This document shows, one piece after another, positions 4,191-60,182 of a stretch of DNA of 64,000 nucleotides. The position numbers and the translations under genes are program-made. The stretch's first letter is position 1; each line of letters opens with the position of its first letter. The DNA is from Zygnema cylindricum. Taxonomy: Eukaryota; Streptophyta; Zygnematophyceae; Zygnematales; Zygnemataceae. The stretch is from contig JBBHKE010002952.1 of the NCBI GenBank assembly GCA_037447655.1, forward strand, positions 140,091 to 204,090, read 5' to 3'. Under the pieces are notes generated by a model, which made no database searches, was not told the origin of the DNA, and was given only the letters and a program-made list of their open reading frames with translations.

Positions 4191-4559
4191 TCATGCCGTA
4201 TCACGTCGTCGCATTTTAACCGCATTTAAACCGTATTTTAATCATATATAAACGGTCTGTAAGATTTACGCCACACTAATTTGTATCGTGGTATGTTTCG
4301 GTGGCGACAGGACCGTACAAATTGTCGTTGACGCCGTGAAACCCGCGGACAGTTTCAGTTTCTGTACGCGAAGTCGTCTGTCCGGGAATTTTGGCGAACC
4401 GACATATCTCGTCGGCCGGAATTTCCGCGACCAGTTTGGATCGATGTACGGACGATCGCGAACCGAAACATCAACTCCAAGTGATGTCGACGCCAGCGTG
4501 GATTCGAACGCGAATCTACGGCCACGAAAGATGCAGACGAATGGACGGTCCAGATGCGA

Positions 4560-5345
4560 ACTGCACGCAGGACCATTTTAAGTCGTGGACCCTTGGAGGT
4601 CTCACGCATTCACATGTAGTGTAGGAAGGGTTTTTATCCGTAGGCTGTAGATTTTGTAACGTAAGGCAGACAATTCTGGTCGCCTATTGGCCAAAATCCA
4701 AACTAAGCGCAGACAACTACATAGAACGCATGTAGTCTTAGTAAGGTAGACTCTCACCTGTAGACTTTGTACTTAGCGAATTTTGGGTGAATTCTGTGCT
4801 GACAATTTCAAGAGCACAGGAATTCTAATTTTGGAAGATTTGACCTAAACTTTGAGTATTTTTCTTGTGAAATTGTCAGGATAGTTTTAGTGACTATTTT
4901 TCTGGTCATTAAGCGTTTTACTGCCTAGCTCTTACTTTCTTTCTCTGTAAACCTGCCCTACAAATTAATCTACGCGGCTCACGCCGAGGCCTAACCGGTT
5001 TCCCTTCACTTCTTCTCGCGCCCTATCAAGTGGATTTTTGCTTGGCCTTCTTTCTCAGGCTGTTGCTGAACTTTGGTTTGTGATTGGACATTTTTTGGTT
5101 TGCTTGTGTGGTTTACTGCGTGATAGTGGATTAGGGTTGGCTCTCCTAGTATGTTTTGTGTGTGTGACTAAATCTGGTTATCTCAGATTTGCTCGCAGGT
5201 TGCTACATTTTCAGTTTGTGTTGTGATATTGAGTCGAATCTTTATTTATTGAACTCCTGTAAGGAATATAAACTGACCAGGGAGCCTAGTGGCTATCCGT
5301 TGGCATAATAAATAAACTGAGCCTCCCAACTTCCTCTCTCACTCT
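4560..5345 (+). repeat. dispersed repeat family A, copy 1
   Basis: The order of matches is the same as at 37440-38160: GTCGTGGACCCTTGGAGGTC, then GTAGG-AGGGTTTTTATCC, later a TCTAC-CGGC-C-GCC-AACC-GTTTCCCTT block, then ACTCCTGTA-GGAATAT and CCTAGTGG. Spacing is similar but the sequences are well diverged. No coding domain was recognised. It may be a non-coding LTR-type element. Confidence 0.45.
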
Positions 5346-22215: not shown

Positions 22216-23263
22216 CAAACCGAAAAAGAAAAAAAAAAATTGAGAAACAAAACATGCCTTGGATTTATAATATATACCTATATGCTTAATTTCCTCCGCC
22301 ACTTCCCCTTTACCAACATCGATGACCCCATGCCGGATCCATGGATTTCCATCCACTATTTCCTCAAGATCCCCCGATCTCCGTTCCAGGACTCCACACC
22401 TGGATCTCGTCGATTTTCCACATTTCTCTGTTTCCTTTCCTCCTTCCCATTCTATCGTCCATGCTTCTCCCTCTAATTCAATGACCATGTCCAGCCGTGC
22501 ATCTTCGCCTCTTCTCCCTTGTTCACCTCCTCCACCTAAACCTCGCACACAAGCCTCGGCACGGATAGAATGTACGGGGTGTCATAACCATTTCGCGACC
22601 GGTGCTGGTATTGCCCGACATACAAAAAGTCGTCAACAAATTTTGGCCTTGAGTGACCCTTCCTCTAGTACCCTTTCTTCCACAACACTCCCGTCCGGAC
22701 CTACGAGCGAAGATTGGGCATTTGTACGCAATTTAGACGTGCTCGGAGCTTATGATTTGGGGCCCCCCCGTCCGCGTTTATACACGCGGATTCCGATGGC
22801 TGTGCGGATTATCGTAACGCACGCCCTCCACCTTCTTTTGTCCCGTATTTATTCAGATCCCACGGATGTTGGACCTTGGCACCTCCTTTTCATGTTTTCA
22901 CTTTGGGTTGTAGTCTTACCTGGCCGTGGCGGTGGTAGCGGGGCCCGAGAAACAATGGCTCGATGTAGACGATTCATTCGAGGCGATTGACAAGCACTTC
23001 ATGCCGAGCACGAGGATCGAGTTGCGAGTGCTTCTTTCACACCACGTCATACCTCTCGGACTTCAGATGTGCCATCCTCCTATCGTCGTGCGGTACATTT
23101 GGGCAGAGTTGGTGAGCTCTCTCAAGCGGTTCGGGCCCTCCAACCTTTTAATCCTGCTCCTCGATCTAGTGCAACTGTTGAGATTCTCTAAGCACTTCAT
23201 CCGCCAGCTCTTTCCCCTCAGTCCCCCTCTAATCACACCTTCGAGCCGATAGAGTGTTTTCTC

Positions 23264-24775
23264 TTGGATCGAGACTCTTTAATTAAAGCCCTTACGACTT
23301 CTCCACATCTTTTAGCAAGGGGTCCTTCGGGCACTGTTTATGAGTTATTTCGCGATGTTTTGACTCCAGAATCTGGTGCACGAGGCTTTGATATGTTTTT
23401 TCGAGTATGTTTCCTTATCCCGGCTGGCACTGTCCCTTCTCGTATTTGCAATCTCCTCACAGCTTCCCGCCTCGTAGCTGTCACCAAACCCAATGGGGGA
23501 ATCCGTCCTATTGCAGTGGGCGAGGTATTGTACCGATTCGTGGCCCGTGCAATCTGCATCCACCTCCAGCCCGCTTTCCATGATTATTTCTCTCCTCATC
23601 TGTTTGGGGTGGCAACCCGGGGGGGTTGTGAGGCCGTGGTCCACGGGATTCGAGCTTTGTTAGATGCCCATCCAGATTGGTTAGTCCTACAGGTGGATGT
23701 TTCTAATGCTTTTAATACAGTGGATCTGAATGCCATTTTTTCGTAGCTTATGGCTGCACTTTCACCGATTGTCCAAATATTTCCTTTTGTGAGAGCCTTT
23801 TATTCTCTGAGCAGTAGCCTCTCTTCCTCCACTGATGATGGTTTGGTCCCACTTTCCTCCACGACTGGCACCCGTCAAGTCGATCCTCTTGGGGGCCCTT
23901 TGTTTGCCCTAGCCCATTACCGCGACCTACGAGCTTGCGCAGTTGCTTTTCCTTCTTGCCTCTTCCCTTCAGTTGCCGATGATGCACACAATATTGGTCC
24001 TTCGAACCAAGTTATACCGGCCTACAACTTTTTCAAGGCTCGCCTGGCCGAACTCAATCTTTTGGTCCAGCCCTCTAAGTGTGTTGTTTGGTCCCCACGT
24101 CCTATTCCTCCTCCTTTCACTCCCCCTACTGGTTTTCAGACTCCTCTTTCCGACGGCATTCGTGTGTTTGGTTGCCCGCTTGGTTCTGCTCCATACGTCA
24201 CAAACTTCCTCGATTCCGCTCTTCACACAGATTTGTCCCACGTGGACGACCTTCCTCACCTTTCTGATCCCCAGGTGGCCTTTGCTCTTCTAACACGGTG
24301 TTTCCCCCACCGACCCTCCTACCTTACTCGCACTTCCCCTCCCACCCCATCCTTTGTGTCCTCACTTTCTGCATTCGACGGTCGTCTTATGGATGTCCTC
24401 CACACTTTCTTTGGTCGTGGAGCTTTTGATCGCGAGTCTGGGCCTGCGGCACGCATCCAAGCCTCTCTCCCTGTCTCGGCTGACGGTTTGGGTTTACTCT
24501 CGACGGCGCGTGTTGCTCCTGCCGCTTATTTGGGAAGTTGGTTCCTTGTTGCTTCTACTATTGTCTCTCGTTTTTTGGTTGTGGACACTCCAATTCTTGC
24601 GGCCGTGGTTCCCCATGTTTCAGATGGTGAGCTCGCCTTTCAACAGTCTCGTTTGGGTGCATCATGTTCTCTTAATCCGGCTCCTATCGAGGACATGCAA
24701 ATATTTTCCACTCTTGTTACGACATCAGTCGCGCGTGTTCAGAATCCATTTCTGATCGGGTTGTCGTCACTATAA
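23264..24775 (+). pseudogene. LINE reverse transcriptase domain
   Basis: Two long open stretches (23264-23746 and 23750-24775) lie in the same frame and are separated only by a TAG. Together they cover the fingers and palm of a non-LTR reverse transcriptase. The catalytic Asp residues of motif A (VDVSNAF) and motif C (ADD) are retained. Motif B reads QVDPLGGPL instead of the usual QGDPLGPLL. Confidence 0.85.
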
Positions 24776-24778
24776 AAT

Positions 24779-25593
24779 CCGAGCTTCTCGAGGCGCTCCC
24801 TTTCGATTCTTCGCGTGTACGCTTCCTGTCTTGTGGCGGACCTGGCTCTGGAGCTTGGCTATTGGCTGTCCCTATCTTATCCACTCTTCGTTTCACCCTG
24901 GCTCAGTTCACGACGGCCCTTAGGTTCCGGCTTGGCCTCCCTCACCCACCTTTGTTTGGCTCACTTGTTTGCTCCTGTGGCCACGTTCTCGAGCCCGACG
25001 GGGTCCATTTGCTTCGTTTCTCCCACGGGGGCGAGTTGATTCAGGCGCACGACTCGATTCGAGACATCATCGCTACTATCGCTTCTGAGGGGGGATTTTT
25101 TGTTCGTCGGGAGGTATCTCACATTATTCCTTTGCGTCGGATTGACCTTGTGTTACTTGATGGTGCGCGTCGTACATTTGGTGACATTGTTTTGGCGAAC
25201 CCTACCTCAACTACAGTCGTCAAACAAGCTGCTCGGCATGTGGGAGTGGCTGCCCGTGACGCGGCAAAAAGGAAGGAGAGTGATTATGCCCGTCGCGACG
25301 CTATGGATGGCTTCATTCCGATGGGGGTCGAGATATTTGGTTGTTTGGGTGTGGCTTTGGATGAGTTATTCCGTACTTGTGGTCGGCACTCTTTCGAGAG
25401 GCGGGGACCTGGGAGCCCTTCTGTTTCAGTCCTTACTTCTTTTTTTCGTCAACGTTTTTCCGTGGCCATACAACGGGTGTTGGCTTCTATGTTACTTCGA
25501 TCGTCTATTGCTGTTATGGAATGCCGGCGTGTTCCGGAACTTCCTCCTCGTGCTCCTCCGGGATTCGGGGACTTACATGGTTGCTTTCCGTAG
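24779..25593 (+). pseudogene. LINE C-terminal restriction-like endonuclease domain
   Basis: This frame (long open part 24862-25593) carries a C-x-C and two-histidine cluster, then an Arg-Arg-x-Asp motif (RRIDLVLLD) and a second Asp (FGDIV) in front of NPTS. The order is that of the restriction-like endonuclease that cuts the target in R2-clade elements. The end GFGDLHGCFP precedes TAG and is also recognisable in the LINE fragment at 36640. Confidence 0.75.
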
Positions 25594-30573: not shown

Positions 30574-31755
30574 CTAAGCACAAGATCCGGCAACAATCTC
30601 AAGAATTTCACCAGTAATCTTGGCTTGCCTCTGTCTGTTGTAAGACACTGAAAGATTCTTCTTCAACTCCTTCGCGTTATCACTGGCGTTACTCATAGCG
30701 TTCATTCGTGCAGCAAGCTCACTTGCAAGAGACTCCTGGAGAGCTCTGAGAATCTGGCTGTTGAGGTAGAGAGGGAGAAGAGCATCAAGAATCTGGACAG
30801 GCTCCTGTTCAAATATCAAAACTCCCTGGAACTTATCTGCTGGAGTTTCTGTGCGGATTGACTCACGTTCGACCGAAAATTTGCCTTCCTTAGTGGTCAA
30901 TCGAAAGAGCTCATCCTCTGCAGCATCTACACAGGTTCCATTGATGTCACAAACCTCTCCTTGGGGAGACAAAGGCAAAACAGTGTGGATAATGGGGTCT
31001 GATTTGATCAGAGAGACAAACTTCGTGTACAGAAGCTCCACCTTGTCGACCTCCTCAGAAACAAAGAGAGAGAAAACCTCATCAGCGATCGCCTGGGCTT
31101 CCTTCGTGGTTGGTTGATTGCCTGCCTCCAGGAACCTGTCAACATTAATGTACGGGCGCCTCTTGAAGTAGCTGTTTCCTTTCTTTCCGATACTAACAAG
31201 AGTATAATCGACTCCAAGAGCAGTCAGCTCCCTGATCCTCTGCTCCGCCTTCTTAATCACGTAGTTGTTAAACCCTCCGCAAAGTCCTCTGTCACCAGTC
31301 ACAACTACAACAGCAACTTTCTTCACTGGTCGAATGTCGGTCAAAGGAATGTCAACATCCTCACTCTGCAACTGCTCATTCACACTGTACAAAACCTTGA
31401 CAAGGTTTTCTGAGAAGGGACGGCCGTTGACGACAGCTTCCTGAGCCCTTCGGACTTTAGCCGCAGCCACAAGCTTCATGGCTTCAGTAATCTTCTGAGT
31501 TCCTTTCACAGTTTCAATACGGTCACGCATCTCCTTCAATGAGGCGGAGATCTGCTTCTTGACCGCAGATTTGTCGTCGGATTCAGCTTCCAGGGTAAGG
31601 CTCCTGACGTCATTGAAGCGAGAGGGAAGAGATCTGGAAGAAAGTCCGTCAAGAGAAGGAATGATTGACTTCCTGTTGACTGAGACCGACCGCCTCTGAG
31701 TGGTGGCGGCGCCAGCTGCGGCAATGGCTGAACTGCAAGAAATAGCTGTGGCCAT
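30574..31755 (-). CDS. atpC: chloroplast ATP synthase gamma subunit, intronless
   Basis: The 393-residue protein is the central rotor shaft of thylakoid CF1-ATP synthase. Residues 1 to about 65 are Ser/Ala/Arg-rich and serve as the transit peptide. The mature part begins near ASLKEMRDRIETVKGTQKIT and runs through AAAKVRRAQEAVVNGRPFSE, VVTGDRGLCGGFNN, FVSEEVDKVELLYTKFVS and the C-terminal QAKITGEILEIVAG. Residues 269 and 275 are the two cysteines of the redox insert (EVCDINGTCVD), through which thioredoxin activates the enzyme in light. The length and the near-complete match to plant AtpC show an intact gene. The start Met directly opens the transit peptide. Three G-boxes lie 0.6-0.75 kb upstream. 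No introns are present, as in other plant ATPC1 genes. Confidence 0.97.
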   Translation of the reverse strand: MATAISCSSAIAAAGAATTQRRSVSVNRKSIIPSLDGLSSRSLPSRFNDVRSLTLEAESDDKSAVKKQISASLKEMRDRIETVKGTQKITEAMKLVAAAKVRRAQEAVVNGRPFSENLVKVLYSVNEQLQSEDVDIPLTDIRPVKKVAVVVVTGDRGLCGGFNNYVIKKAEQRIRELTALGVDYTLVSIGKKGNSYFKRRPYINVDRFLEAGNQPTTKEAQAIADEVFSLFVSEEVDKVELLYTKFVSLIKSDPIIHTVLPLSPQGEVCDINGTCVDAAEDELFRLTTKEGKFSVERESIRTETPADKFQGVLIFEQEPVQILDALLPLYLNSQILRALQESLASELAARMNAMSNASDNAKELKKNLSVSYNRQRQAKITGEILEIVAGSCA

Positions 31756-32360
31756 GGCTACTGGTTGATAGAGTTACAACAAATAAATAGAGTTAAATGC
31801 TGTCTCTGTGACAGCAATAACAAGAGACTTCCACCAGAGGAGAGTATTAACAAAACAAAGTTTGAGAGAGGTAAAAGCTTCGCTTGGAAAGGATCAAGTT
31901 ACAAGAAGCTGATGTGGATATGGCTGCCTGCAATGCAGTTGAAACATGAGAGGCTCTTGTTTCAGCAGCAACTTTTGCCGCCTTTCCGAACCTACTTCTG
32001 AGCGTCCAGACAAAACCTCTCTGCCGAGCCTGTCACAAAAAGCACGCGGAGCTAAACCCGAACCTCACAAAAGCTTCCCATAGCTAGTTCTACAGCCGCA
32101 TTTGCCACGGGCGGGCCAAAGGTCCCCTTTCAATTCGAGCTTTTACGAAGCTTGAGATCCGGTTCGTCAATGATGGACAAATAGGCTCATGGCAGGGTAG
32201 GGTCAGGTGTGGTCAAGGTTTAAGCAGTGGCTTATACGGAAGATAGTTGATAGACAACTTTCAGTGAGCCGAACCTAGACCGGTCCTATCCACATCCATT
32301 CTAGACGAGCCGAAATGGCAACCCGACATTCTGATTGGCAGTCGCTACGCCGCAGTGACT
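31756..32360 (-). promoter_or_regulatory. atpC 5' leader and proximal upstream region
   Basis: This region precedes the atpC start on the minus strand. I see no clear TATA box at a typical distance; CTATTTATTTG at about 31783-31793 is the nearest candidate and is very close to the ATG. No other gene is present. Confidence 0.4.
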
Positions 32361-37022: not shown

Positions 37023-37222
37023 TATATCTTAACTACAAAGTCTTTAATTAAAAAAATCAATAAATCAAATAAAGGGAAAAGAATATCTCTTAAAGCCACG
37101 CTCATATATAATGATCTAAAAATATATTTGATCCAATTTTCAATGCAAATAGTTATATTTTGAGTACATGAAATGGGATTTATTTTAAAACATTATAAAT
37201 TGATTTGAAACTTTGATATTTG

Positions 37223-38160
37223 TCATGCCGTAAGACGTCGGCGGGTATTATTTATCAAACCCATACTAGTTGTGCCTTTGTGACGTAACAAGTATGTACA
37301 GGAGCGTATATCGCGAAGTACGGACAGGACATGGACCGGATTATGTACCCATGTGTGGTACAGAGTGCACCCTGTACGGAATCCACCTGGAACCGGGATG
37401 TGGTACGGCATTTGGATGCCTAGAACTCAACGGCTGTTAACGGGACGAATGTCAAAGTCGTGGACCCTCGGAGGTCCATGCATTTATTTTTGTTTAGCGT
37501 AGGGAGGGTTTTTATCCTCGAGGTGTAGATGTAAGGCATCCCGAGGCGGCTACGTAGCGATCATCTCTAGGAACAGGCAGCGTTTGAGCATAGAAACCTG
37601 CACGCTCAGAGACACATAGAAATTAGTGTAGCTGTACGGTTAGCACAAAGCATAGGATAAAGGCCAAATGGCATGCTAGGACAAATTGCAAATTTGAAAC
37701 ACGAGAATCCAACATTAGAGCGTTGTCGCTTTCTGACGAGCTTTTTCCTTGGGATTTGTCGAACTTTTCAGATTTAGGGTTTTTGATCTAAATATTAGTG
37801 ACAGGTTAGTTCTGAGTTAGGGTTTTGCTTTCTGGACCATAGGTTATGCGGTTAGCTGTCTCTGAGCTCCTCATCTTTTCTTATATCAAGTCCTTACCTA
37901 ATCTACCGGCGTAAGCCAACCTGTAAGGTTTCCCTTAAGACTGTTGTCTACTTGCCGTGGTGCATGAATTGTTTGTGCGGATTCAGTGTGTTCTTGTTGT
38001 CAGAGTGCGGGCTTTGCGGTCCAGCTCTCCTTTGGTCTGATCTCGTGGAACGCCGGCTATCTCGGTTTCTCCATCTGGATGGAGGAGAGTTGTCGACTTG
38101 TGGTTGGACTCCTGTAGGGAATATTAAAGACTTCAGGACCTAGTGGTTACTGTCGCAAAT
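37223..38160 (+). repeat. dispersed repeat family A, copy 2
   Basis: It parallels 4560-5345. Shared markers are GTCGTGGACCCT-GGAGGTC, GTAGGGAGGGTTTTTATCC and the CTCCTGTAGGGAATAT...CCTAGTGG end. No coding domain is seen. Confidence 0.45.
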
Positions 38161-38446
38161 ATTCCCATGTTAAAAATTTGTGTTTTTTCTATTTTCTAAT
38201 TGGCTTTATCCCTGGTGTGGATTAGTTTCTTTATTTCTAGTTTATTTTAAATTGTTTTCTTGTTAGAGAGTTGTCGTCTTGTGGTTGGACTCTCGTAGGG
38301 AATATAAAAGACTTCAGGACCTAGTGGTCACTGTCGCAAATATTCCCGTGTTTAAAATTTGTTTTTCTTCCTACTTTCTAATTGGCTTTATCCCTGGTGT
38401 GGATTAGTTTCTTTATTTCTAGTTTATTTTAAATTGTTTTCTTGCT
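38086..38446. repeat. 181-bp tandem duplication
   Basis: The unit AGAGTTGTCG-CTTGTGGTTG...ATTGTTTTCTTG occurs at 38086-38266 and 38267-38446 with few differences. It lies at the end of repeat family A copy 2. Confidence 0.9.
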
Positions 38447-39019
38447 ATCTGGTTATTGTTATTGGTTTTCTTTTCTAGTCTGGTGGTTTTCGTTGGATTT
38501 CTTTCATCAGTTTTTATCTTCAATCTTTAGGGTTTCGTCGCTAGTGGGCTGTGAGTTGGATATTTAAATCCGGTATAGTGTCCTCTTTCCTTCCACCTAC
38601 CGGATTAACTCACTCAGAAAACCTAGCAAACCTAAAAGCTTATAAAAAAAAAATCATATCAAAAAACCAAAGAAAAAAAAATATACAATTATATATATTT
38701 AATTATATAAATTAGCTTGCACGAATTATCACATAAAATTATAACTGCTTTAATTGTTGGGTAGAGCGTGGCTTAAAGCTGATACGTTTAACCTAACAGG
38801 CTACTAACCACTTTGGCATTGAGTTGTGGTGTGATTCCGATAACTTGGAACTGGAGCATCGGGGGGGGATATTCAAGGTATCCTACAGAATGCTATCGCT
38901 TCAAGTGAGCAACCAATCCTTGTGGGTGGAGGCGTGTTCTAGGTTATCAAGCGCACTCGGATAGTGGGTTAGATATCTCGCCGAAAGCCACATTTTCTCT
39001 CCGTATAGGACATCATCGT
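38447..39019. other. no recognised feature
   Basis: AT-rich DNA follows the tandem duplication. The last 200 bases before 39020 may belong to the methyltransferase-bearing retroelement, but I could not recognise a domain. Confidence 0.4.
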
Positions 39020-39147
39020 TGCATGGTCCTAGTTTCTTGTTCTATAACATCTGGCATTTTTGGGCCCTGAATAGTTTCTGGTTTTTATTACATCTGCCTG
39101 TATCGGTACCTGAAATCTAGTAGCCGTGTATGCTGGGAGAGACCAAC

Positions 39148-40526
39148 TCATGTGACTAAGTTCCAAAAAATCATAAATAGTGTGATCTTTGTCAGACTTA
39201 GCGGGAAAAGGAAAGAGGGCAAGCTGAAACGTTGTACCCTGAAGAGAAGGTGAGGACTTCGATGCTGTGTGTTTAAATGGTGTATGCCCCCCCCCAGCTG
39301 ATTGAGACGGATTGTTCTGTAAGTATCGACCAGCTGAAATCCCATTCCCAAGACAAATGAAAGTGACTGGGGATCCATGACCCGACCGAGTAAGGTACAA
39401 CGCTGCCGCTCGGTGAGTCCCGGAGCAGCAGTGGTGCCCGGGATAAAATGTAAGAGGTGTTCTCGTTCTGCAGCAGTGGGTTCTTCTAAGCTGCCTGTAT
39501 GAGATTTTTGAAGCATGCTTGGTCCGTTGTGTGAATATGAGTGAGAATGTGGATATGAGACAAGTGTGGGAAGTGCACGTAGTGGTTGGCTAGGAATGTT
39601 GAGACAGAAAGCAGGATGATAGTCTGTCTGAATACAGGTTTGGACTTTATAAAATGGGAGTTGTGCATCCTGAATGGCAAGCTTAGGTGGACAGACAGCG
39701 AGGTTAGCTTCTCGGAGCCGACCTATATCTACCAAGGTAGTCCACCTGGAACGAACCCTGTGAGCCAGCGAACCGTGGCGTGAGGCGTCGATAATTAATG
39801 GTGGTCCAATCAGTGATTCAATGCGTTCGTAATCCGCGAGGACCGTGGGTCGGGGATCATTATAAGCTGCAATATTTTCTAAAATGTATCCAAAGTGACG
39901 GTTCAGTGACTGAAAGAAATGAATAAGACGTACTACCTCAAAGAACAGTTTAGTGCGCGGATCCGCCAAACCTAAACCTTTCCCGGCTCTAGACATTCCT
40001 TGACATTCCCAACCTACCAAAAGAATGTCGATTGGTTCTAACTCAAATGATGATTACCTATCAAACGGATGTCCTGTGGTAAAGCGGAATGCATGATGTG
40101 AAAAGCAGACTGTGGTAAGAGGTGAGGGTATTGTTCATGTAAGATTTGACAGTGATGAAACTGAGCGCGTCTAGCCAAAGGGGCAATATCTACAGAATAG
40201 TATTGCTTGATTAAAATAGCGTTCCTAAGGCAAGAGAGAAGTGTGGTACCTATACCTGCAAAAATGTCTAAGATAACAAGACCGTTCGGGTTAGGTTCTA
40301 AGTTTACTGGTTTCCATTTAATTGGGAAAAACCAAGATCCTAGACCGTTCGGGTTAGGTTGTAAGTTTACTGGTTTCCATTTAATGGGGAAAAACCCAGA
40401 AGGATCCATGGCAATAGCGGGTGGATCTGGAATACTGCATAAAGGAATCGGTACTGTGAGCTTATACAATCTGTCAAAATTTGACGAGTCAATAATAAAA
40501 CCTGTGGTACCAAATAATTTCGGCAT
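39148..40526 (-). pseudogene. cytosine-5 DNA methyltransferase domain in a retroelement, frameshifted
   Basis: Two frames make one domain. Frame 1 (40526-40038) has motif I, VILDIFAGIGTTLL, for AdoMet binding, then YYSVDIAPLARR (motif II) and LPQDIRLIG (motif III). A frameshift near 40040 leads to frame 2 (40020-39148). It begins IDILLVGWECQGMSRAGKG (motif IV, with ECQ where PCQ is usual), then LFFEVVRLI, YILENIAAYND (motif VI, EN-I), SLAHRVRSRWTTLV (motif VIII) and LTERQRCTLLGRVMDPQS (motif IX region). The enzyme class transfers methyl groups to C5 of cytosine. The motif VIII and IX wording looks closest to DNMT3-like enzymes, but I could not align it. Stops in the linker before frame 1 and the frameshift disable it. 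Confidence 0.8.
40281..40406 (-). repeat. 63-bp in-frame tandem duplication before motif I
   Basis: The sequence for FFPIKWKPVNL-PNPNGL occurs twice, 63 bp (21 codons) apart, just before methyltransferase motif I. The units differ at a few bases. The frame is kept. Confidence 0.85.
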
Positions 40527-40716
40527 TCCCAGGGGGTTTGGTAAGATTTCTTCCGTTGTTAACGATTAAAGAATATCAGAACCTATGCTGACTCCAGCAT
40601 AGGCAGCCAAGACAAACGCCGACTGAGCCCTTGTAGGCATGGGTTGTCGGGCTAAGATAAGAGGTAAATAAACTTTGCGGTTTGGAAAATTGTTTGGTCT
40701 ATACGAAAATGTTTGA

Positions 40717-41562
40717 TCATGCATACAACCCCCCCCCCACTCGGAAAATGACGTCTTGGCCGATCAAGCACTCATAATCGCTACACTTGGTGACCAAGGC
40801 GTGGGCGTATATTTCTGCGAAATCGGATTCTGATTGACACTGAAATTGAAAACAGAGGGGTTCTCTTGTCATACCTAAGACAGGTTCTGTGGTTCCTGCA
40901 GATGTCAACAACCGAGTGGTAGTGGGCTGTAGCTTATCTGCAGCCAACCCTAGTTTCTTGGCGAAAGCCGATCCGAGGATAATGGGTTTCGCCCCTGTGT
41001 CCATGAGAGGTAAAGTTGGAGCTACCCCATTCACTGTCAAAACACCTAACTTGTTATCCAGAAAACTGATGTGCGGACTAAGACCAGAACGCTTTTCTAG
41101 AGTAATCGCTTGAAGAGTGAGGGTACTACGATGATTTTGGAGTGCCTGTAATGCATGTGCAGATTTTGTTAAATCTGAGGGTTTAGCCTCACTATTTGGT
41201 TCACGGAGCATGGTTGCCAGTATTGCTAACCGTTCTTTAACCTTATAGGCATCCTGTATACTCCCTTCTAGAATGGTTAAGGCCTCCGCAGTGATGCTGG
41301 AGGCTGTTTCCGAGATAAGGGTTTTAGGTTCTTCAGCGAAAGATAAAGCTATGCGAGTGCTAATGGATTTAGACTCACGATTATGATCGGGGGTCCCTTT
41401 GAAAATAGCTGCCCGTTGTTGAACGGTCGACTCTCTGAGAGACCGCCCCGCAAAAGAGGGTATATGGACTACGGTCTGGGCCATTCCAATTAATTGCGGT
41501 TTGACCTGCGCCATAAGCGCGGCAAACTGCTCCTTCATCATGGCCGCCATGGTTGCCTGCAT
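40717..41562 (-). pseudogene. retroelement gag linker and aspartic protease
   Basis: The 281-codon frame starts MQATMAAMMKEQFAALMAQ. Residues 60-155 are a helical linker (for example SIQDAYKVKERLAILATML). Residues 172-275 form a retropepsin-like fold: LTVNGVAPTLPLMDTGA with the catalytic Asp-Thr-Gly at 188-190, then CLIGQDVIF near 265-273 as the second signature. It is in the position expected for protease, after gag. The frame is open over its whole length. Confidence 0.8.
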
Positions 41563-41759
41563 CTCTGCTCTATCTCGGTCCCTCTTGCTTTATTACATCG
41601 GGTCGTGTTGGCCCTGAACAATTTCCTTCTTATTATATCTGGCCGCAAGTGGCCTTGCATAGATGGCATGAGTTTGTTTGGCATGGCGTGACGTTAGTGG
41701 GATTGGACAAGATAGTTTGCGAATAGACTGACGCCGGTGATACAGGATAGGCTGAACTG

Positions 41760-43802
41760 CGTGGTGTGTCAATCTTGCAGTTATTTGCACATTTTTGCGT
41801 GTGTTTGGCATTTAGCTGCATCCGGATAGGACCGTCTTCGGTATACATGCCAACGGACTGGAATAACTTACAGTTTCCGGCTGGTACCACCAGAAGCTCA
41901 GGTGCTTACCGAGGGCCGCCCAGAGAGTTTGTTACAGCCGGTCCCCCTCCAATATCTTTTCCGAACTTAGCAGTTCAGTCACCATTTTTAGGATCACCGA
42001 GTCAGTCGAGATCTGGACTTTCTTCGCTCAATAGGTCTACGTCGTCGGTTTCTTCATCTTTCACCCACAGTTCGGGGGAAGATTCGGACACCGACTCGCT
42101 TGACATACAGGGTCTAGGTTTACCACCGTCAATTTTCTCAGTGGGCCGTACCATACACACCAATCACACCTCATTTAGTGTGGACATGGCCTCGTCTATT
42201 GACACCTGAGGTAGTAAACATCATTTCTATTTTTCTGGTCTCAAGGACACCATGTCCTTGTCTCACTTTCGCATGCTTTTCAATACCGAAATACGTGACC
42301 TGGCATTTCGGTATCAAGACCGCTACGACCTAAGGGTCGCTTTTTCTTTACTAGGGAGATACCTAAGAGGATCTGCCCTATCCCTTTATACCCGGAAATA
42401 TGAGGAAATTTGTGCTATGACTAAAATAGCACCCGCCTATTCCAGAGCTCCTACCATAATGGGCAGTCCCGAAATTACTTTCCAACCTGCTGAACGGCAG
42501 TTTATGACTCCACAGGCAACGAAGTTTTACCCGCAATACCTGAAGTCCCTCATCAATTTGCAGTGGCAGCTAGGGCTGCAATTCCGGCTAGACCTGAAAT
42601 GTTAGTCCCGCTAAGTGATACAGTCTCATTAATTTTCGATTTATTACAGAACGAGTATCGGATGCAGAATCCTAACCAAGTCAAAGAATTAATGAATTTC
42701 GAGCGCAGACCGGGTGAAACAGCTCGGCATTGCGGTCACGTATGGAAACTTTGCGTGAGGCCTTATCGGATCTCATGTCAAAGGCTGAGGCGGTACAAAA
42801 ACTTGTGGGTCACTTTTCCACACAATCTCGACGGTTCACTTAGAATCGCCTGACCGAAGCATATTGCCTTAAATTCACGTTCGAACAGGCTGCAGAGTAT
42901 GCTGTGAAGTACGAAATGCAGACCAGCTGGTGGGACGCTCACGAGCGGCCGAAACCTTCACCTGAAGATTACACGAATCCAAATCCTTTCCTTAATCCTA
43001 ACCCGCGCAACCCATGGCCCAACCAAAGACCTCCAAGGGCCCCCGCCATGGGATCATTACCCACAACGCCTGGAGCGCGTATATGTTTCCGGTGTGGTCG
43101 TAGTGGACACGACGCACGTAGCTGTCCAGACAAGTCAGCCACGTGTACTCACTGCAATCAAACAGGTCATTACGTACAGCGATTTCATATTAAAAATCCA
43201 GATTTCAGTTATCAAAATCAAATTAAAAACGGCGGTATACCTGCTCGTTCTGCTAAATTGGTCACTCCACCGAAAGGGGAAGAGAAGGACACGTCCCCCA
43301 AAATCAGCAGGAGGGACCGAGATAGGCAAAGATGCAGGCAACCATGGCGGCCATGATGAAGGAGCAGTTTGCCGCGCTTATGGCGCAGGTGAAACCGCAA
43401 TTAACTGGAATGGCCCGGACCGTAGTCCATATACCCTCTTTTGCCGGGCGATCTCTCACAGAGTCAACCGTTCAACAGCGGGCTGCTCTTTTCAAAGGGA
43501 CCCTCGATCATAATTGTGAGTCTAAATCCATTAACACTCGCATACCTTTATCTTTCACTGGAGAACCTAAAACCCTTATCCCGGAAACAGCCTCTAGTAT
43601 CACTGCGAAGGCCTTATCCATTCTAAAAGGGAGTATACAAGATGCCTATAAGGTTAAAGAACGATTAGCAATACTGTCAACTATGCTCCCTGAACCAAAT
43701 AGTGAGGCTAAATCCTCAAATTTAACGAAATCTGCACATGTATTACAGGCACTTCAAAACCATTGTAGTACCCTCACTCTTCAAGCGATTACTCTAGAAG
43801 AG
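41760..43802 (+). mobile_element. gag region of the same retroelement family, opposite orientation
   Basis: On the plus strand a gag-like polyprotein can be followed through several breaks. It starts near MPTDWNNLQFPAGTT (41847) and is Ser/Pro-rich. After an in-frame TGA at 42207 comes FSGLKDTMSLSHFRML...LLGRYLRGSALSLY, a typical gag capsid pattern. After frameshifts come EALSDLMSKAEAVQKLVG and two zinc knuckles, CFRCGRSGHDARSC (intact CCHC) and CTHCNQTGHYVQRF (last Cys lost). The final part (43332-43802) matches the minus-strand copy at 41562-41095. The copy ends abruptly at 43802 against the minus-strand copia fragment. Confidence 0.78.
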
Positions 43803-46800
43803 CTAAGATTATCACTCCTTGTTCTACACTTCCATCACTTACTTTCTTCAAGTCCATGGGAGTGGTACAACTGTTTTTTTTTTTCCATCTTGAATTTCTC
43901 AAGCATATTACCTATTGCTTCTTTCCGAGTAAGTCTAATGATCCTTTTCCCCCTATCTCTCTCCATTTGGGTTCCAAAAATATATCTTGCCTCCCCTAAA
44001 TCCTTCATGTCAAATTTGCTTCTAAGATCTTTCTTTAACTTATTGATCTTTTCCAAAGACTTACTTAACACCAGCACATCATCCACATAAATTGCAATAA
44101 AAATCACACCATTCTCATCTTCAAACATATAGATAGAATGGTCAGAGCTGATCTGGATATAACGCAGACCAGTGAGAAACTCATCTAGTTTGTTATTCCA
44201 CTATCGGGGAGCCTGCTTCAGTTCATATAAGGACTTTATGAGCTTACAGACTTTGCTATCTTCTCCTTCCTCCACGAACCCCTCTGGTTGCCGCATGAAT
44301 TTTTTTTCCTCTAACTCACCATTAAGAAAGGCGATTTTAATATCCATCTAGTGTATTTCCATGTCTTCCGCTGCCGCTAGACTGAGGAGAATTGTAACAG
44401 GGTTACAGAATTGGGTACTTAGTGGCTGAAGCTAGGCTGCTATAGTTGCGATTTCAGAGCAGCGCAGTTGCGGTTCCAGATCAGCGTAGCTGCGATTCCG
44501 GACCAGCGCAGCATAGCAGCATAGCAACTTGGTAGCGGAGCAGCGCAGCATAGCAACTTAGTAGCGCAGCAGCGCAGCATAGCAACGCCGCAGAATGTAG
44601 ATGGAACTGTATAATTCTAGAAGGAAGTTTTGGATAAGTCTCGGTTGGCCGCGAAGGTCCACGTGTACAGTTGTAAAGTACTAGGTTGACTAGCAGTTAG
44701 CTAGTTTAAATAGGCGAGTAGACCTAGTGAATGGGACACCTGAACTAGACCTACACAGCTAGCGCAACCTTGTACTCTCTCTCAAGTAATAAAGCTTAAC
44801 CTTGTCTGTGAGTTCTGTGTATTCATACTGTTGCTACGGAAAGATCCTTGGTGTTTTCCGTTGTGCACTGTAACGTGTTGTGGTGTATCTTGCCCCATTT
44901 ACAAGAATCCTTACTGATGGGAACCGAACAACTAGAGCAAAAGTCTCCTCATAGTCAATAGGACTATGAAAAGTTTCTAGTAGATCTCTTGTATCTCGGA
45001 TCTCCCTTGAATCTGCAATCACTATTTCATTCATGTTCATTTCCAGAAAAACCGAGTTCTCCTCATTGTCGGACTCAAAAGTGATTCTTATCTTCTTGGT
45101 ATATTTAAAAGGGTCAAATGACTTCCCTTCATCCATGAAAACTATGTGCTTGACCAGAATGATATCTTGCTTTGCTAAGTCATAGACTCAATATCCCTTG
45201 AAATCCTCATCATATCCTAAAAAGTATCCAATTTTTCCCTTAGCATCTAGTTTCCAATTTTTCCTATCCGTATCAAGACTGTAAACTTGGCTACCGAATA
45301 CTTTAAGGTGAGAGATATCTAGTTTCCTTCCAACCCATCTCTCATAAGGTGTCATTCCTTTTACGGCTGAGGTTAGGACTCTATTATTAATGTAGTCAGC
45401 ACAGTTCATGGCTTCTGCCCAAAATCTATTTCCTATTTTCTTGTCGGCCAAGATATTGCATACACTATCCCCTAGTGTTTGGTTCAACCTTTCAGCTACC
45501 CCATTTTGTTTCGGGTTATATGGTAAAGTTTTCTGGTGCTGAACTCCCTCATCTCTCAAGCATTCCTCAAAGTGTTTAGAGGTATATTCTCCCATATTAT
45601 TCATCCTTATTCTCTTAATGGGGGTTCCATACAACTTCTCACTCCAGGCTTTAAAGTAAGTTGGTGTTTCAGACTTTGTTTTTAGGAAATATACTCTAGA
45701 GTATCAAGACCAGTCATCAGTTATTGTCAACATAAACCTCTTCCCTCTGATTTAAGGTACTTTTGCATGTTCCCAAATATCTGTGTGGACGAGATCTAGT
45801 ACTTTCTCACCCCTATATGTGGCGACTATGGGAAAGGGAAGTTTGTGAGCCTTACCTTGAGCACAACCAATACAATCCTCCAACATTTAATTATCCCCAA
45901 ATTGAATGCCTTTTACTACACCAAGCTTCTTCATTTCCCTCAGCCTTTCAAAATGCACATGCCCCTACCGCTTATGCCAAATCATCAACTTGGAACACCA
46001 ACATTGTAAGCATTGTTCTTTTCATTACTCGGGTTAAGCCTAAACATTCCTTGGCTACCCTTATCTGCCGTGAAGTAGACTTCATCCCCATACTTAGCTG
46101 TAAAGACTCCCTTTCTAGTAAAGGTATCAAACTCTTTATCATCTAACACAGACGTAGAGACAAGATTTTTACTGAGTTCAGGAATGTATAGTACATCTAA
46201 GAAGGTGAGTATAGAATTCTTACCCTTCACTAAGATTTTCACATCTATTGACCCCACTAGATTTGTAATAACCACTCTCCCATCCCCATAATCTATCTCT
46301 ACAGTAGGGATCTTTCTTAGCTTAGTAATGTGGTGCTTATCACGACACATATGCATAGATGCACCTGAGTCCATGATCCATCCTTCCTGTGGAGCTTCTT
46401 TTATTGCTCCGAGAGCACACTTTTGTTTCCGAGGGATCTCCTTCTCCTGTATACTCTAGTCAAGAAGAAGCTCCCCATCCTCCTCATCAGAGGACTCGTC
46501 CGCGGTCTCTAATTTCACTTTTGTGACCACGAGTGCCTTCTTCTTCCCTCCGGAAGAACCCCCTCCAAGGTGGTCGTGGAGCCTTAGCTCTGACAGCTTG
46601 ACACAATCCGCTATGAACTGTTCCTACTTTTTGCAAAAGTGACAAAGACCTTTTGGGGGCCTCGTTCCTCTAGACTGATCTCTCTCTCCTTTGTACGGTT
46701 TCTTCGGATCCTTCCCTCACCAGTTTGCTCTTGCAGCTAGAGCTTGGATGCTCTTTCCCCCTCTCCTAATCTCAATTGTCTTCTCCTGCACCAGTATCAT

Positions 46801-46880: not shown

Positions 46881-46922
46881 TCGTCAATATAAGATGGGCA
46901 CCCTATAGGGTGGGCCCAGAAC

Positions 46923-49900
46923 ATGCAATTTTGTGCCCTCCATTGGACTACAAAACTCGAGAGTAAAGCACGTGCTCAATGGAGGGTGAATGATATCGCA
47001 GCAACGACCGGTTTGATGACAAATTGCACTTCTTTCGTGCTTGATCATTTCCTCGCTCACCGCACGGCTTATGAGTGTTGGCAAGCACTTGAGGAGCAAT
47101 ATGAGAAAGGCGTTGAGAACAAGGGTCAATATGTTTATACGGACTTTATGAATTGTAAAATCAAACCAAATGAAGTGATGGATGATGTCGTGAAGCGCTT
47201 CAATTTTATACTCGAGCAATTACTCAACAATGGTCGAGTTATCTTGTATGCGGATAAATAAAGCGTTTTTCTTAACGCTTTACCGGACAAGTTTTTGCAT
47301 CTTAAAGCTATTTTACGAGCGAAGGCGGATAACACCTTTGGATTTACCGCCAATTTTATCAAAATGTCGGAGGGAAATCCATCGACTTCTTCAAGTGGTG
47401 GAGATGGAGTTCTCAACTGTACTACTCCCGAAACCTCGGATCTTTGCTATGCCGGTGGTAGAGGAGGTGGTAGAGGAGGCGGCACGAGAGGTGGTGGCGG
47501 CTGAGGCAACAAGAGGGAGCAAGGCCGTCCACCGAAGGCCCTTTCAGGTCTTTCCAATGTGACATGATACCGATGTAACCGGCTTGGACATTTATCTTCC
47601 TCTTGTCCAGATAAGGACAAGCAATGTCATTTTTATGGTAAGTGGGGGCATACGAGTCCTCAATGTTATGCGAAGAGTGGAGATTCTGGAGGTGGAAGAG
47701 GAGGTAGAAGAGGTGATAGAGGCGGTTGAGGTGACGGCCGAGGAGGAGGCCTCGGTGGTGGTCGTGGTTATGGTAATGCAAATTACTTTGACTATGGCAA
47801 TGAAACCAGTGATGTTTTCCCAGTTGTTAACCTTAGCCTTGATTCGGTGAGAATGAAGGAAATTTGGAGAAAGAGTGGATTATTGATACGGGGGCATCCC
47901 ACCATGTTTGCATGGATGCCACTTTGTTTGATGACATGAAAGAACTTACGGTTCTATAGTTTATTACGATTGCAATCGGCCATGTCATTTCGATTGGAAC
48001 GGTTGGCACTGTTTGGCTTGATCTCCTTTCATGGGATATTGATGGGAAGGAGAAATCGACAGAGTATCGTCTTCAAAATACTCTTTACATTCCGGACGGT
48101 TCGGTCAATTTGTTAAGTGTTCCACAAATCCACCGGATTGGTGGAAGCTTACTTGCGAGAGGTGATCAATCTACAGAGATTTGGTATGAGAATGGGAATG
48201 TAATTGGAGAAAGAGTTGTAACGGATGCGAATCATAGTCGGCTCTTATAAAGGAGGCCGAAATCTAAATTCCCACCGAAGGAATTTCACATCAAATTTCG
48301 GAGTTGAAATGCAATCTTACCTTATGGCATCATCGGATGTGTCAAACATCCGAGGTAAGTTTGAAGAAGATGATTCATCATTTTTCGGTAAGGGGTTTGG
48401 ACCTCGCACCCGGTGAGAAGGTGAACGGATGCGGAGGATGTAGCAGAGGACGTCAAATTCGAAAATCCCATCCGAATAAAGACATCAAGCATCGAGCTCA
48501 AAATCCTTTGGAGGTTGTTCACAACGATCTTTGTGGGCATATTAAACTTGAGACAAATGGAGGTAATAAGTATACTTTGGTGATTGTTGATGGCTTCTCC
48601 CGGAAGTCATAGGTGTATTTATTGAAAAAGAAATCGGATTCATTTGAAAAAATTTAAAGAACGGCATGTATTGGCCGAGAGGCAAATTGATAAGAAGCTT
48701 TAGTCCATTCGGTCGGACAATAGAGGGGAGTTTGTTGTTTTGGAGAGGTATTGTAAGGAGTGGGGGATAAGGCATCAATTCATGGCGCCTTTTTCTCCGG
48801 AGTCAAATGGAGTGGCCGAGAGGAAAAATCGTACCTTACAAGATATGGTCATTGCAATTCGTTCATAGCTCCGGACGAGAGATGTTTTTGTGGGGAGATG
48901 CAATTCTTACGGCCAATTACATTTGCAAGCGGAGACTCACTTCGATTTCTGAAAGTAAAATATCGGAGGAATTGTGGTGTGGAAGAAAGCCCACGGTTCA
49001 TCATTTGAGAATTTGGGGATGTCATGCTACGGTTTATGTGGAATCAATTAAGAGGAACGAGAAATTTGCACAAAGGAGTTGGTTGGGAATTTTTTTTGGT
49101 TATAGTGCGAAGGGGAATTTGTACCGAGTATATGATCCGGCTCGTCACACCGTGGAGGAATCTCGGAATGTGGATTTTCATGAGGATCTCAAATTTGCCA
49201 TGAATTCCGTTGGGAAATTTTAAAAAAAAATGGATTTTTATGAGGAGAGTGAAATTGAGAATTTTCCGTATATTGGGGATTTGAAATCCGATGAAGAACC
49301 GAACCTAAAAACTCAAAAAAAAGAAATTGGGGAAACCGGTTGAGATTCAATTTGAAAGAAAGAGTAACAGATCTTTGGATTCCCGAGTGCCTTCGGATAT
49401 TTGGAATTCTCAAAGCTCTGAATAAATCGAGTGAGAAGGAAATTGAAATTGAATCTGAGGAAGAGAGAGAGGAAAAGGAGGAGGAGCAAGTTATTAGGAG
49501 GAGCTCTCGGAGTACAAAGGGGAAGAAAACGAAGAAACTCACGATCAAAAAGGGGAAAATGCATCAAATTCGCATTATTTTCTTTCCAATGCTAAGGAGA
49601 CGGAGTTTCTTTTGTAGCAATCACTTACGAAAAATATGACCGGCAACCCTTAAATTTATGTCGAGGCTACAAGGCCGGTTGATTGGGAGAGTAAGTGGAA
49701 ACTGGCGTGGGAGAAAGAATTTAAATCGGTGGTTGAAAATCGAACTTTTTAGGAGGTAAAATTACCGGAGGGGAAAAAGGCGATTGATGCAAAGTGGGTC
49801 TTTAAGACCAAAACAGGAGCTTCGGGTGAAATTATTAAGTACAAGGCGAGGCTTGTTTATAAGGGATTCCAACAACGTGGGGGAATTGATTTTAAGGAGA

Positions 49901-51554
49901 CTTATGCTCCCATGGTGAAGTTCTACTCACTATGGATTATTATTGCACTTGCAGCGATGTGGAAAAAGCACGTCCATCAAATAGACGTGGAAACCGCGTT
50001 TTTAAATCGTGAGTTGGAGGAAGAGGTGTATATGAAGGTACCAGAAGGGGTGTCTCCTTTACAGGAAGGAAATGTATGGCGTTTGGGAAAGTCCTTATAT
50101 GGTTTGAAACAGGCGCCACGCACGTGGTATTTGAGACTTCATCAAGTACTATTGAAATTCGGATTTGTACAGACTACGTCAGTTTCTAGAGTTTATATGA
50201 AATTTTGAGGAAGAAGATTTTGTCGACGTTCCATATCAGGAGGAGGTTAATTCACTTATGTACCTTAGCGTTGGTTCTCGTCCAGATATTTGGGCCGCGG
50301 TTTCCATCGTCAGTCGTTATTGTCACGAGCCAAAGAAGGCGCATTGGGAGACCGTACGACGTATCTTTCGATATTTAGTTGGTACGATTGATCTTGGACT
50401 TTTGTTTACTTCTGACAAAAAATCTTTGGAGTGTGTGGGGTATTGTGACGCGGATTGGAGGCGGCGACTTTGATTCAAGTAAGTCCACGTCAGAGTACAT
50501 ATTTATTTTTGGAGGAGCCGTAATCTCGTGGAGTTGTAGGCTACTACCTACGGTTGCGTTGAGTTCCACAAAATTTGGGTATATGGTTGCGTGTCATGCA
50601 GCTAAGGCATCGATTTGGACTAAGGAGATGTTACGTGAGTTAAGCGTTCTTATTGGTTGTATGATGATTTATTCTGACAGCATGAGTTCGATGGCGTTGG
50701 CGAAAATCCAGTGTTTCACAAGAGGACGAAACATATCAAGATCCAATGGCATTTTGTAAGAGATATGGTTACGGCAAACGAGATTGTATTTTTGCGCACC
50801 AACAAAAGAGGAGGCGGCGGATTTTCTGACGAAAGCAGCTACGCATCATGTATTTGAGAGGGGGCGACCAAAATTTGGATTATTTTGAAATGTTTGGCGA
50901 TTCCGACAATAAGAGGAGGATTGTTGGGTTATTATCGTTTCGCGGTATTTTCGCGAAGCGACATACTAACATTTATTTGTTAGACGTGAAGTATCACGTC
51001 ATCATACAAAATGTACGACGTAGTTTCGCGGCGGTACTTTTGTTATCGGCGAACGAAGTGTACTATTTCGTTTCGCGTCACTTTATGTTTTCGTGCGCAG
51101 GTGTCTCATTTTGCTTGTAGGTGTATTCGTGTGACGACACGTGTTTAAGTCAACGTTTGGAGTTTGTCTTTTCGAAGGAAGAAAGTGCATGCTAGTTTCT
51201 TCGTGGAAACGTCGTTGTAGTGTGCACAATCAACTAGAGACAGACTTCGTCGCTACGCTAAGTCTTGCTTGTCTTACCTTGTTGTCTCTTAGTGCAGAGT
51301 AGCGAGTATATAGGCAGCAGTGTACATGTGCAAATATTGTATCTTATCAAATAATTTATCTTAGATGATTAACCTTGGAGTAAGAGATTATTTAAAGAAG
51401 AGAGAAGTGAGATGATGTAAAGAGGCTTCGGCCAAGAACACTTATAAATCTTTTTGGTTGAATATTCCTTTTGTCTTTTATGAGCTTCCGTTGTGTAATG
51501 ATTTATGTTTTGTGATTTTTTTTTGAGTGAATGTCTTTTGCTTAAGATCCAACA
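46923..51554 (+). mobile_element. degenerate Ty1/copia retrotransposon with 3' LTR
   Basis: The plus-strand order is gag (AYECWQALEEQYEKG, 47069), Gly/Arg-rich linker and zinc knuckle region (47450-47720), protease (EWIIDTGASHHVC, about 47873), integrase pieces (NPLEVVHNDLCGHIK, about 48505), reverse transcriptase (IDFKETYAPMVKF, 49889; FLNRELEEEVYMKV; KSLYGLKQAPRTW) and RNase H (VGSRPDIWAAVS, CDADW, about 50270-50460). The stretch with the YVDD box between 50205 and 50225 is deleted. The frame is broken by many stops. The 3' LTR follows at 50922. No 5' LTR or primer site is seen before 46923. Confidence 0.88.
50922..51554 (+). repeat. 3' LTR of the plus-strand copia element
   Basis: A purine tract (AAGAGGAGGAT) precedes TGTTGGGTTATT at 50922. 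The LTR ends GATCCAACA at 51554, so the ends are TGTTGG and CCAACA. The length is 633 bp. A TATATAGG box lies near 51307. Confidence 0.82.
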
Positions 51555-56321: not shown

Positions 56322-57679
56322 AAAAAAAAACTTTGTCGTTTTTTTTACAGAGTTTTGACCTAGTTTTGAGTTCTGTTGTAAGATAGTTTTGTACAGTTGA
56401 CAACTGAGGGGATGGGGAAAACCAACGGAATATTTTCTTTTTCTTGTCTTTTTTTTTTCCCGACTTTACTTTATGAGTTTTGTACTTTATTAAGGTAGGA
56501 GTCTTTTTGGAGTTACTTTTGGTCTACAGGTTTTTTTTTGTATAGTTGGTCTTGATTGGTAGAGAGTCAACAAGTTCAGGATCTTTTTGTACTTTTTTTT
56601 GTAGATTGTCTTGGGAACTTGTTTTATGAGTGTATACCGTTTTTATTATCCGATAGATATTGGTGTACAAAAATGGTTTTGTAATTCAAACAAGTTCTAT
56701 GGAATCTTGAGAAGATGAATGACAATTGAATTATATCTCTGGATACTAAAGGTTTGTGTGGGATTTTATATTTTTTAGTACTTGAAATACATATGATGAA
56801 AAGTTAAATTTTAATTGGAAATGGAAAAAAAAACCAAAAAAACCCAAACCCAATTTTTTCTTTTTTTTCTTTCTTTAACAAAATGAAGCTTTAATAACGG
56901 TTTATATGTGTATTAATACACATGTATTCTCTTTTTATTTTGCAAATTCAAGCTTTATTACCAACAACAAATTCCACATTATAGGTTGGACAATGGTCCG
57001 ACGAATATTTAAGTGATTGTTGCATTTCTTGTAAATAAACATTTTGAACAAATAGTTGATAAAAAAATTACTTGCTAAAACATACATATAATAACCTGCA
57101 ATAGTCGTCACACTTTGGGTGAAATTAAACTTCAGTAAAATATCAACTTTTATCCAAACTGTTGGCATTACAATTAATCTTGTTTTACCGAAAGTTGATA
57201 TATATCCCTAAAAAACCCATATATATATATATATTGATGTGGAAGTTAATAATTATATCTCTAATACTCTTTGGTACTTTTTATGAGAAACCAAATAGAT
57301 TAGATGTCTATTTGATGGCCAATTCAAGTTTGGTTTGAAAAAGTTGTAAACATTTAAAATTTTAGAAATCACATTCGGATTGTACATCTTGGTCAGTAAA
57401 ATTTTATCGCTTGTAAAAAGAAATGTTAAATAACCTATTGACCAAAAGAGAATGTGAACTATAATGTTGTAAACACAAATCACGAAGAAATGGTCCGGAA
57501 GAAGTAAAAACAGTTGTGCGCTAAAAGGGGCAAATACAAATCTATGCATATTTAAGTCTACATAAGTACAATGTGTGTCTTTACAAATGGTGGCAAATAA
57601 ACAGTAGATGGTCTCAAATGTTCTCTTCTGATGTTACAATAATTTTTTTTTTCCGGATATATAGTGTATCCAATATATT

Positions 57680-57680
<1 letters not shown>
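56322..57680. other. 3' flank of the His/Gly-rich gene; otherwise nothing recognised
   Basis: The first part is probably 3' UTR (T-rich, several possible polyadenylation regions). The rest is AT-rich without coding evidence. Confidence 0.45.

Positions 57681-60182
<2,502 letters not shown>

Follow-up and report, generated by a model that had tools for sequence, protein, structure and literature searches.

A window of 64,000 nucleotides (nt) of Zygnema cylindricum DNA was analysed, in which one degraded retrotransposon copy carries the remains of a cytosine-5 DNA methyltransferase (DNMT). The assembly to which the window belongs comprises 352.8 Mb in 2689 contigs. The parts of the copy, compared with its sister copy L029 from the same genome, are as follows.

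37221..38161 (+): what is left of the A repeat, the left terminal repeat of the element and equivalent to a 5' long terminal repeat (LTR), first letters TGTCATGCCGTAAGACG, identified against the 931-bp A repeat of L029
38162..39031 (+): leader, from the A repeat to gag, matched by L029 and L047 at 82-86% in stretches of 38282-39031
39104..40326 (-): frameshifted domain of a DNMT3-type cytosine-5 methyltransferase, with GWECQGMS as motif IV, 84% DNA identity to the L029 DNMT
40342..40716 (-): protease-DNMT spacer, its frame lost in the window copy and open in L029
40717..41589 (-): C-terminal linker of gag plus retropepsin (aspartic protease), a 290-aa open frame, PF13650 at E 4.4e-6
41091..41589 (-): gag linker, inverted copy, 92.4% identical to 43306-43803 (+)
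41583..43803 (+): end of the leader and gag, the frame broken into pieces, running opposite to the block of protease and DNMT
about 43081..43179 (+): two gag CCHC zinc knuckles, PF00098 at E 8.8e-6 and PF13696 at E 5.1e-5, in 2 stretches
43306..43803 (+): gag linker, direct copy, at whose end the element breaks off, adjoining a Copia reverse transcriptase fragment (-)

The methyltransferase is read from two overlapping minus-strand frames, 40565-40038 and 40053-39148, and a C-terminal tail frame reaching to 39029. PF00145 is matched by the larger frame alone with E 1.1e-7 and by the two pieces joined with E 3.5e-9. By eye, motifs I (ILDIFAGIG), IV (GWECQGMS), VI (ENI) and VIII (HRVR) and a C-terminal TAAPGLTERQR..LLGR block were recognised. 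Together with the PF13650 match of the protease, these frames bear out the initial annotation, made from the sequence alone, in which a methyltransferase was placed downstream of a protease on the same strand. Directly ahead of DNMT motif I, a tandem repeat FFPIKWKPVNLxPNPNGL occurs at 40420-40300 (-).

On the plus strand the order is left A repeat, leader, an inverted block of linker, protease and DNMT (39104-41589), and then the end of the leader with gag; leader repeats were seen by eye at both junctions of the inverted block. The leader also contains a tandem duplication (38085-38265 / 38266-38447). In comparison with L029, the A-repeat relict is 97% identical at 37221-37251 and 79% at 37455-38161, window 41589-40342 matches L029 3604-4853 at 78%, and 41583..43803 matches L029 1892-4102 at 81% DNA identity, the gag pieces reaching 54-80% at the protein level. 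In L029 the stretch from linker to DNMT is free of stops over 414 codons. The second gag-linker copy with zinc knuckles, which had been noted initially, is present and runs opposite to the block of protease and DNMT. Searches with 93 family proteins and with pieces of L029 gave no family reverse transcriptase (RT), ribonuclease H (RNase H) or integrase in the window, only a weak Copia integrase match, and of the paired terminal repeats just the left A repeat was found. The window by itself does not support an intact methyltransferase polyprotein: the DNMT is frameshifted, and the copy is a dead, rearranged and 3'-truncated member of a Ty3/Gypsy family.

Broken frames and the missing RT after the DNMT would also suit a host or bacterial-type methyltransferase gene that became a neighbour of a retroelement by chance. 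The sister copies refute this explanation, to which we assign next to no probability. L029 has a single uninterrupted frame of 2395 codons, comprising gag, CCHC, linker, protease, DNMT, RT, RNase H, integrase and a PHD finger (Pfam: RVT_1 1.3e-30, RT_RNaseH 3e-35, Integrase_H2C2 2.8e-16, rve 3e-13). The same domain order, spread over two or more frames, was found in L030, L031 and L034-L037. In L029 the Ty3/Gypsy Pol order of protease, RT, RNase H and DDE integrase is observed directly; tyrosine recombinase, the hallmark of DIRS elements, gave no Pfam match in the six L029 pieces scanned, and an rve-type integrase occurs instead.

The PF00145 profile search of the genome yielded at least 123 scored places, all above the cut-off, from 782 candidates; some may be fragments of a single copy, and at least L027 is not part of an element but a host-type methyltransferase exon. 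Among the best 8 places, seven are element DNMTs with a protease alongside and the eighth is this exon. L027 differs from the family, as it shows no match to the family profile and its best PDB matches are chains named DNA (cytosine-5)-methyltransferase 1 with E 8.1e-28, one of which, 4fsx, is a maize chromomethylase. With the protease-linker DNA of the window as query, 40 scored places out of 457 candidates were obtained, including the window's own two, and the nearest other copy lies at 91%. The initial annotation had proposed that the methyltransferase belongs to a retroelement polyprotein and does not stand beside it by chance, and had named as the opposite outcome that no other genomic copy would link the two domains. 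This outcome did not occur: DNMT sequence was found beside the protease in 7 of the 9 other protease copies whose surroundings were returned, in one of them no more than its 38 initial residues, where the stretch ends, and proteins from outside this genome show the linkage as well. The search for full-length copies suggested at the same time led to L029, in which gag to PHD form one frame between split direct repeats, and the RT and integrase that were to be looked for downstream of the DNMT, absent from the window, are present in such sister copies. Judged by these domain matches, the genome almost certainly holds a Ty3/Gypsy family with a DNMT3-type methyltransferase between protease and RT and a PHD finger after the integrase.

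For the ends of the element 20 places were fetched, mostly picked for long open frames, so that the sample is biased. In 6 of the 20 stretches the element is spanned by a direct repeat with 96.2-100% identity. In the other 14, which were short, none was detected; this is weak evidence because the stretches are cut short. Flanks were fetched for the three copies with the most alike repeats, L029, L034 and L036, whose A repeats agree at 931/931, 1381/1385 and 99.5% of 1475 positions, respectively. In all three, the stretch past the right A repeat (B2) duplicates the stretch before it (B1) at 99.6%, 99.5% and 99.4%, resulting in the DIRS-like layout A1-coding-B1-A2-B2. A plain LTR reading was dropped, as B2 outside the right A repeat copies B1 inside and the repeats are accordingly split. 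The LTRs that were to be looked for according to the initial annotation take the form of split direct repeats in L029, L034 and L036, and only the left A repeat was found in the window.

The outer ends are TGTCATG...CACGACA, i.e. of the TG..CA type. Target duplications of 4 bp were found for L029 (TTGG, by script) and L034 (AAGG, by eye from the flanks and missed by the script); the outer end of L036 lies outside the fetched stretch. Since identical repeats occur in insertions, transposition continued until recently. It can be stated that the DNMT is encoded within Gag-Pol, that it is conserved and that some copies were inserted recently. At the inner junction, CACGACA-GC-TGTCATG (L029 9455-9505; L034 680-730), a 10-bp palindrome was noticed at which the two ends of the element are joined with two extra bases, as would be expected for a circle junction. 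Elsewhere in the window, 4269-5295 (+) matches sections of the L034/L036 A repeat at about 80% and represents a relict or solo repeat of another family copy.

To classify the methyltransferase (METHYLTRANSFERASE), a ten-member family profile was compared with PDB. The top match is DNMT3A with E 3.1e-18, followed by 3C and 3B; lower matches comprise the DRM-type chain 4onj (2.9e-9, two stretches), DRM2 (6.4e-8), HhaI (1.1e-7) and DNMT2 (3e-4), and no chain named DNMT1 is among the PDB matches listed. The chain 4onj, titled just 'DNA methyltransferase', is presumably tobacco DRM. DRM methyltransferases have a rearranged order, with motifs VI-X ahead of I-V. Assignment to the DRM class was rejected, as motifs I, IV, VI and VIII of the family follow in canonical order. 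By profile and motif order, the family enzyme is thus classed as a DNMT3-type domain with unrearranged motifs.

The catalytic Cys and the EN of motif VI are retained in 15/15 full-length open DNMT rows and HRxR in 14/15; in L046 the motif I and motif VIII patterns were not matched, and the motif I pattern was not matched in L035 either, whose alignment starts at profile position 12. The ratio of nonsynonymous to synonymous substitution (dN/dS, pairwise NG86) has a median of 0.246 and a range of 0.12-0.43 in the 27 usable pairs out of 105, a usable pair having dS between 0.05 and 1.5. It is below 1 in 27/27 and below 0.2 in 8 of these; with the second entries of two loci left out the median is 0.25 (18 pairs). 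As one copy can enter several pairs and part of the copies are in decay, these figures indicate constraint and not its exact strength. The substitution pattern shows purifying selection on the DNMT and also on the RT.

Two subfamilies are distinguished in this genome, the window copy belonging to subfamily 1. In subfamily 2 an in-frame stop, TAG CAA TTC CC, splits the protease from the block of DNMT, RT, RNase H, integrase and PHD. The UAG-CAA-UUC stop was found in 7 distinct loci (C633, C1042, C412, C1374, C507, C544 and C2216; 28 loci records scanned). In C1662, the eighth subfamily 2 locus, the stop site was not found. The records with the stop are listed here.

L033 (4493-4530), L048, L021-L023, L026, L028, L032 and L043: UAG CAA UUC stop between protease and DNMT

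The tobacco-mosaic-type readthrough signal is UAG CAR YYA. The context of the subfamily 2 stop is close to this signal, and we infer that the stop may be read through.

A transposon with an enzyme for de novo methylation is a paradox, because the host silences transposons by DNA methylation. In the mechanism that we propose, the DNMT would be translated within Gag-Pol, released by the protease and packaged with the RT in the particle. It would then methylate the complementary DNA (cDNA) of the element before or at integration, and a new copy would thus enter the genome already bearing the mark by which the host labels DNA as silent or self. The PHD finger could tether the integrase to histone-marked chromatin and help to choose or read the target. 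Taken as a whole, a Gypsy DNMT family working by such a particle mechanism is probably the best explanation of the data. The particular step in which the enzyme methylates the element's own cDNA is a tentative proposal, to which we give somewhat less than an even chance.

Several observations speak against this interpretation. Two of the nine other protease copies show no DNMT in the fetched flank, and the remaining three repeat-bearing copies, with repeats 96-98% identical, are not very young. In subfamily 1, motif IV reads GWECQGMS, i.e. Pro is replaced by Glu before the catalytic Cys, in 8/8 loci with a full one-frame DNMT; catalysis in the window subfamily is unproven because of this replacement. 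The DNMT is less constrained than the RT, for which the median dN/dS is 0.065 (10/91 pairs). The observed/expected ratio of CpG lacks a clear depletion, with 0.74-0.88 in the parts of the window element and 0.64-1.04 in seven other loci, compared to 0.90 in the whole window and 0.62 in the frame of the atpC gene, and the C-to-T changes that separate L029 from the window copy are only slightly in excess at CG relative to CHH. The DNMT of KnitGypsy-Dnmt3, a related element from Klebsormidium nitens, showed no activity in yeast, a result described as inconclusive by its authors in the portion of the paper covered (PMC5890265). CpG depletion as a trace of self-methylation was considered and set aside, as it gave no clear signal.

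The ECQ motif, the higher dN/dS compared to the RT and the CpG values would be in accordance with a domain that is retained and catalytically altered, the ECQ enzyme being a non-methylating, RNA/DNA-binding or structural part of the particle. The substitution is shared outside this genome, where ECQ was found in 12/17 proteins with the protease-DNMT or DNMT-RT order (in the remaining 5 the motif pattern was not matched). Against this stand the catalytic residues retained throughout the open rows and the dN/dS below 1 for each usable pair. Further, the usual Pro is kept in subfamily 2 (GWPCQGYS in 7/7 rows, 5 loci) and PCQ occurs in 11/15 elements with the DNMT beside RNase H or integrase, ECQ in the other 4/15. 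We therefore regard loss of methylation as distinctly unlikely. As a further alternative, the enzyme might methylate host DNA or act in trans and damp transposition (temperance) instead of marking its own cDNA. This option is raised in the part of PMC5890265 covered, and with at least 123 scored PF00145 places a spill-over onto the genome is plausible. The location inside Gag-Pol favours action within the particle, and the insertions with identical repeats show recent transposition, so that we consider damping in trans unlikely, if not quite as unlikely as an inactive enzyme. With many open-frame copies and two active-site versions in one genome, the role of the enzyme becomes testable.

The PHD finger bears on published gene counts. 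In Zygnema cf. cylindricum SAG 698-1a the PHD family is reported to be at least 9-fold larger than in other Zygnema strains, and the term DNMT is not used in the sections covered of this preprint (PMC9915684). At least 20 of the 150 scored PHD places listed, compared on contigs that occur in both listings, were located 1-7 kb downstream of one of the 123 scored DNMT places listed. This is partial support for the view that the published expansion may in part consist of retrotransposon PHD fingers. In such genomes, DNMT and PHD gene counts can be retrotransposon counts.

Whether the DNA comes from a land plant or a charophyte had been left open initially. The host was placed with the help of a gene in the window.

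30574-31773: chloroplast ATP synthase gamma chain (atpC), a single open frame

In a maximum-likelihood tree of 33 atpC proteins, the window protein falls into a 12-row clade of Zygnematophyceae with Mesotaenium, Spirogloea and Closterium (90/88), outside the land plants, and is nearest to a EukProt transcriptome protein (97/87). The host is accordingly a streptophyte alga. Related elements were sought with two DNMT protein searches, which gave 21 and 74 matches, the weakest being ordinary methyltransferases. The protease-DNMT order was found in environmental proteins, in Closterium and once in a protein that carries the name Calypogeia fissa, a liverwort (P0160, on a 66.6-Mb contig), the DNMT-RT order in Closterium, and the order RT, RNase H, DNMT, integrase, in some cases with PHD, in environmental proteins. 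On the basis of the single protein named Calypogeia fissa, the range of DNMT-bearing Gypsy elements probably extends to land plants, as had been envisaged for the case of a land-plant host. In viral contigs, a scan with the DNMT alignment gave 20 loci with partial matches of 22-47% identity, which were taken as phage-type methyltransferases.

In the DNMT tree of 66 rows, 62 family rows are separated from four distant methyltransferases with 100/100. The rows with the DNMT next to RNase H or integrase fall into a single clade of 23 rows (95/81), which also includes rows whose domain order is unknown; P0021, P0157, P0158 and P0159 are named Closterium, and the position of the Calypogeia protein, which sits on a long branch, is uncertain. 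For the 11 taxa shared by both, the RT and DNMT trees show the same groups, the deep order of the DNMT tree being unsupported. Environmental elements with the DNMT between RNase H and integrase, and a deep split in the RT tree, would fit an origin by two independent captures, in which Gypsy elements took up DNMT3 once for the Zygnema family and once for KnitGypsy-Dnmt3. The union of all 62 family DNMT rows against the four distant enzymes argues against this, as do the split repeats common to the Zygnema copies and the Klebsormidium element as described in PMC5890265, and two captures appear rather unlikely. More speculatively, and hardly as probable as not, a streptophyte-wide Gypsy lineage from zygnematophycean algae to a liverwort might carry a read-and-write kit for integration, made up of a PHD reader, a DNMT3 writer and split repeats, with one branch in which the near-invariant Pro-Cys of the active site was re-engineered to Glu-Cys under continuing purifying selection; the family would then be so numerous that retrotransposon copies account for the majority of DNMT matches in this genome and for part of the published PHD 'transcription regulator' expansion.

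The remainder of the window contains further repeats. Copia-type pol fragments were recognised by eye on both strands, at 43835-46455 (-) and 46893-50208 (+), the first of which ends where the element ends (43803). Frames resembling a non-LTR reverse transcriptase were seen by eye at 22271-25593 (+), and long simple-sequence (TA-rich) repeats occur at 57657-58165 and also at 565-737.

In the literature covered, DNMT-bearing transposons are so far described in two lineages. In the open literature searched, with subscription papers and most preprints outside the search, no DNMT-bearing retrotransposon from Zygnematophyceae or from a land plant was found described among the papers listed. With the Zygnema family, such transposons are known from the algal group nearest to land plants, and probably from a liverwort too. 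The following comparisons refer to the portions covered of the cited papers. SymbioLINE-Dnmt from Symbiodinium is likewise a retroelement bearing a C5 methyltransferase, but is a LINE with an orphan DNMT lineage in open reading frame 1 (PMC5890265). SymbioDIRS-Dnmt3, also from Symbiodinium, shares the DNMT3 in the Pol frame, the split repeats and the many copies (PMC5890265), whereas it is a DIRS element with tyrosine recombinase and the Zygnema family has an rve-type integrase and 4-bp target duplications. SymbioDIRS DNMT3s are reported to perform de novo CG methylation in yeast (PMC5890265). With the chromoviruses the family has in common the Ty3/Gypsy type and a chromatin-reading domain C-terminal to the integrase; in place of their chromodomain it carries a PHD finger, and in addition the DNMT and split repeats (PMC3605345, PMC3350952).

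The closest described system is KnitGypsy-Dnmt3 of Klebsormidium nitens (de Mendoza et al. 2018), for which repeats structured as in DIRS and Gypsy domains are reported, with Ka/Ks < 0.2 for the DNMT (PMC5890265). The comparison with it uses the published description. Both have a DNMT3-type domain in a Gypsy polyprotein, purifying selection and DIRS-like repeats. The host class differs, and key residues are reported as conserved in the Klebsormidium element in contrast to ECQ in the window subfamily; the PHD finger and the stop between protease and DNMT of the Zygnema family are both absent from the main text on KnitGypsy-Dnmt3 (PMC5890265). By domain composition and repeat layout, the Zygnema family and KnitGypsy-Dnmt3 are elements of one kind.

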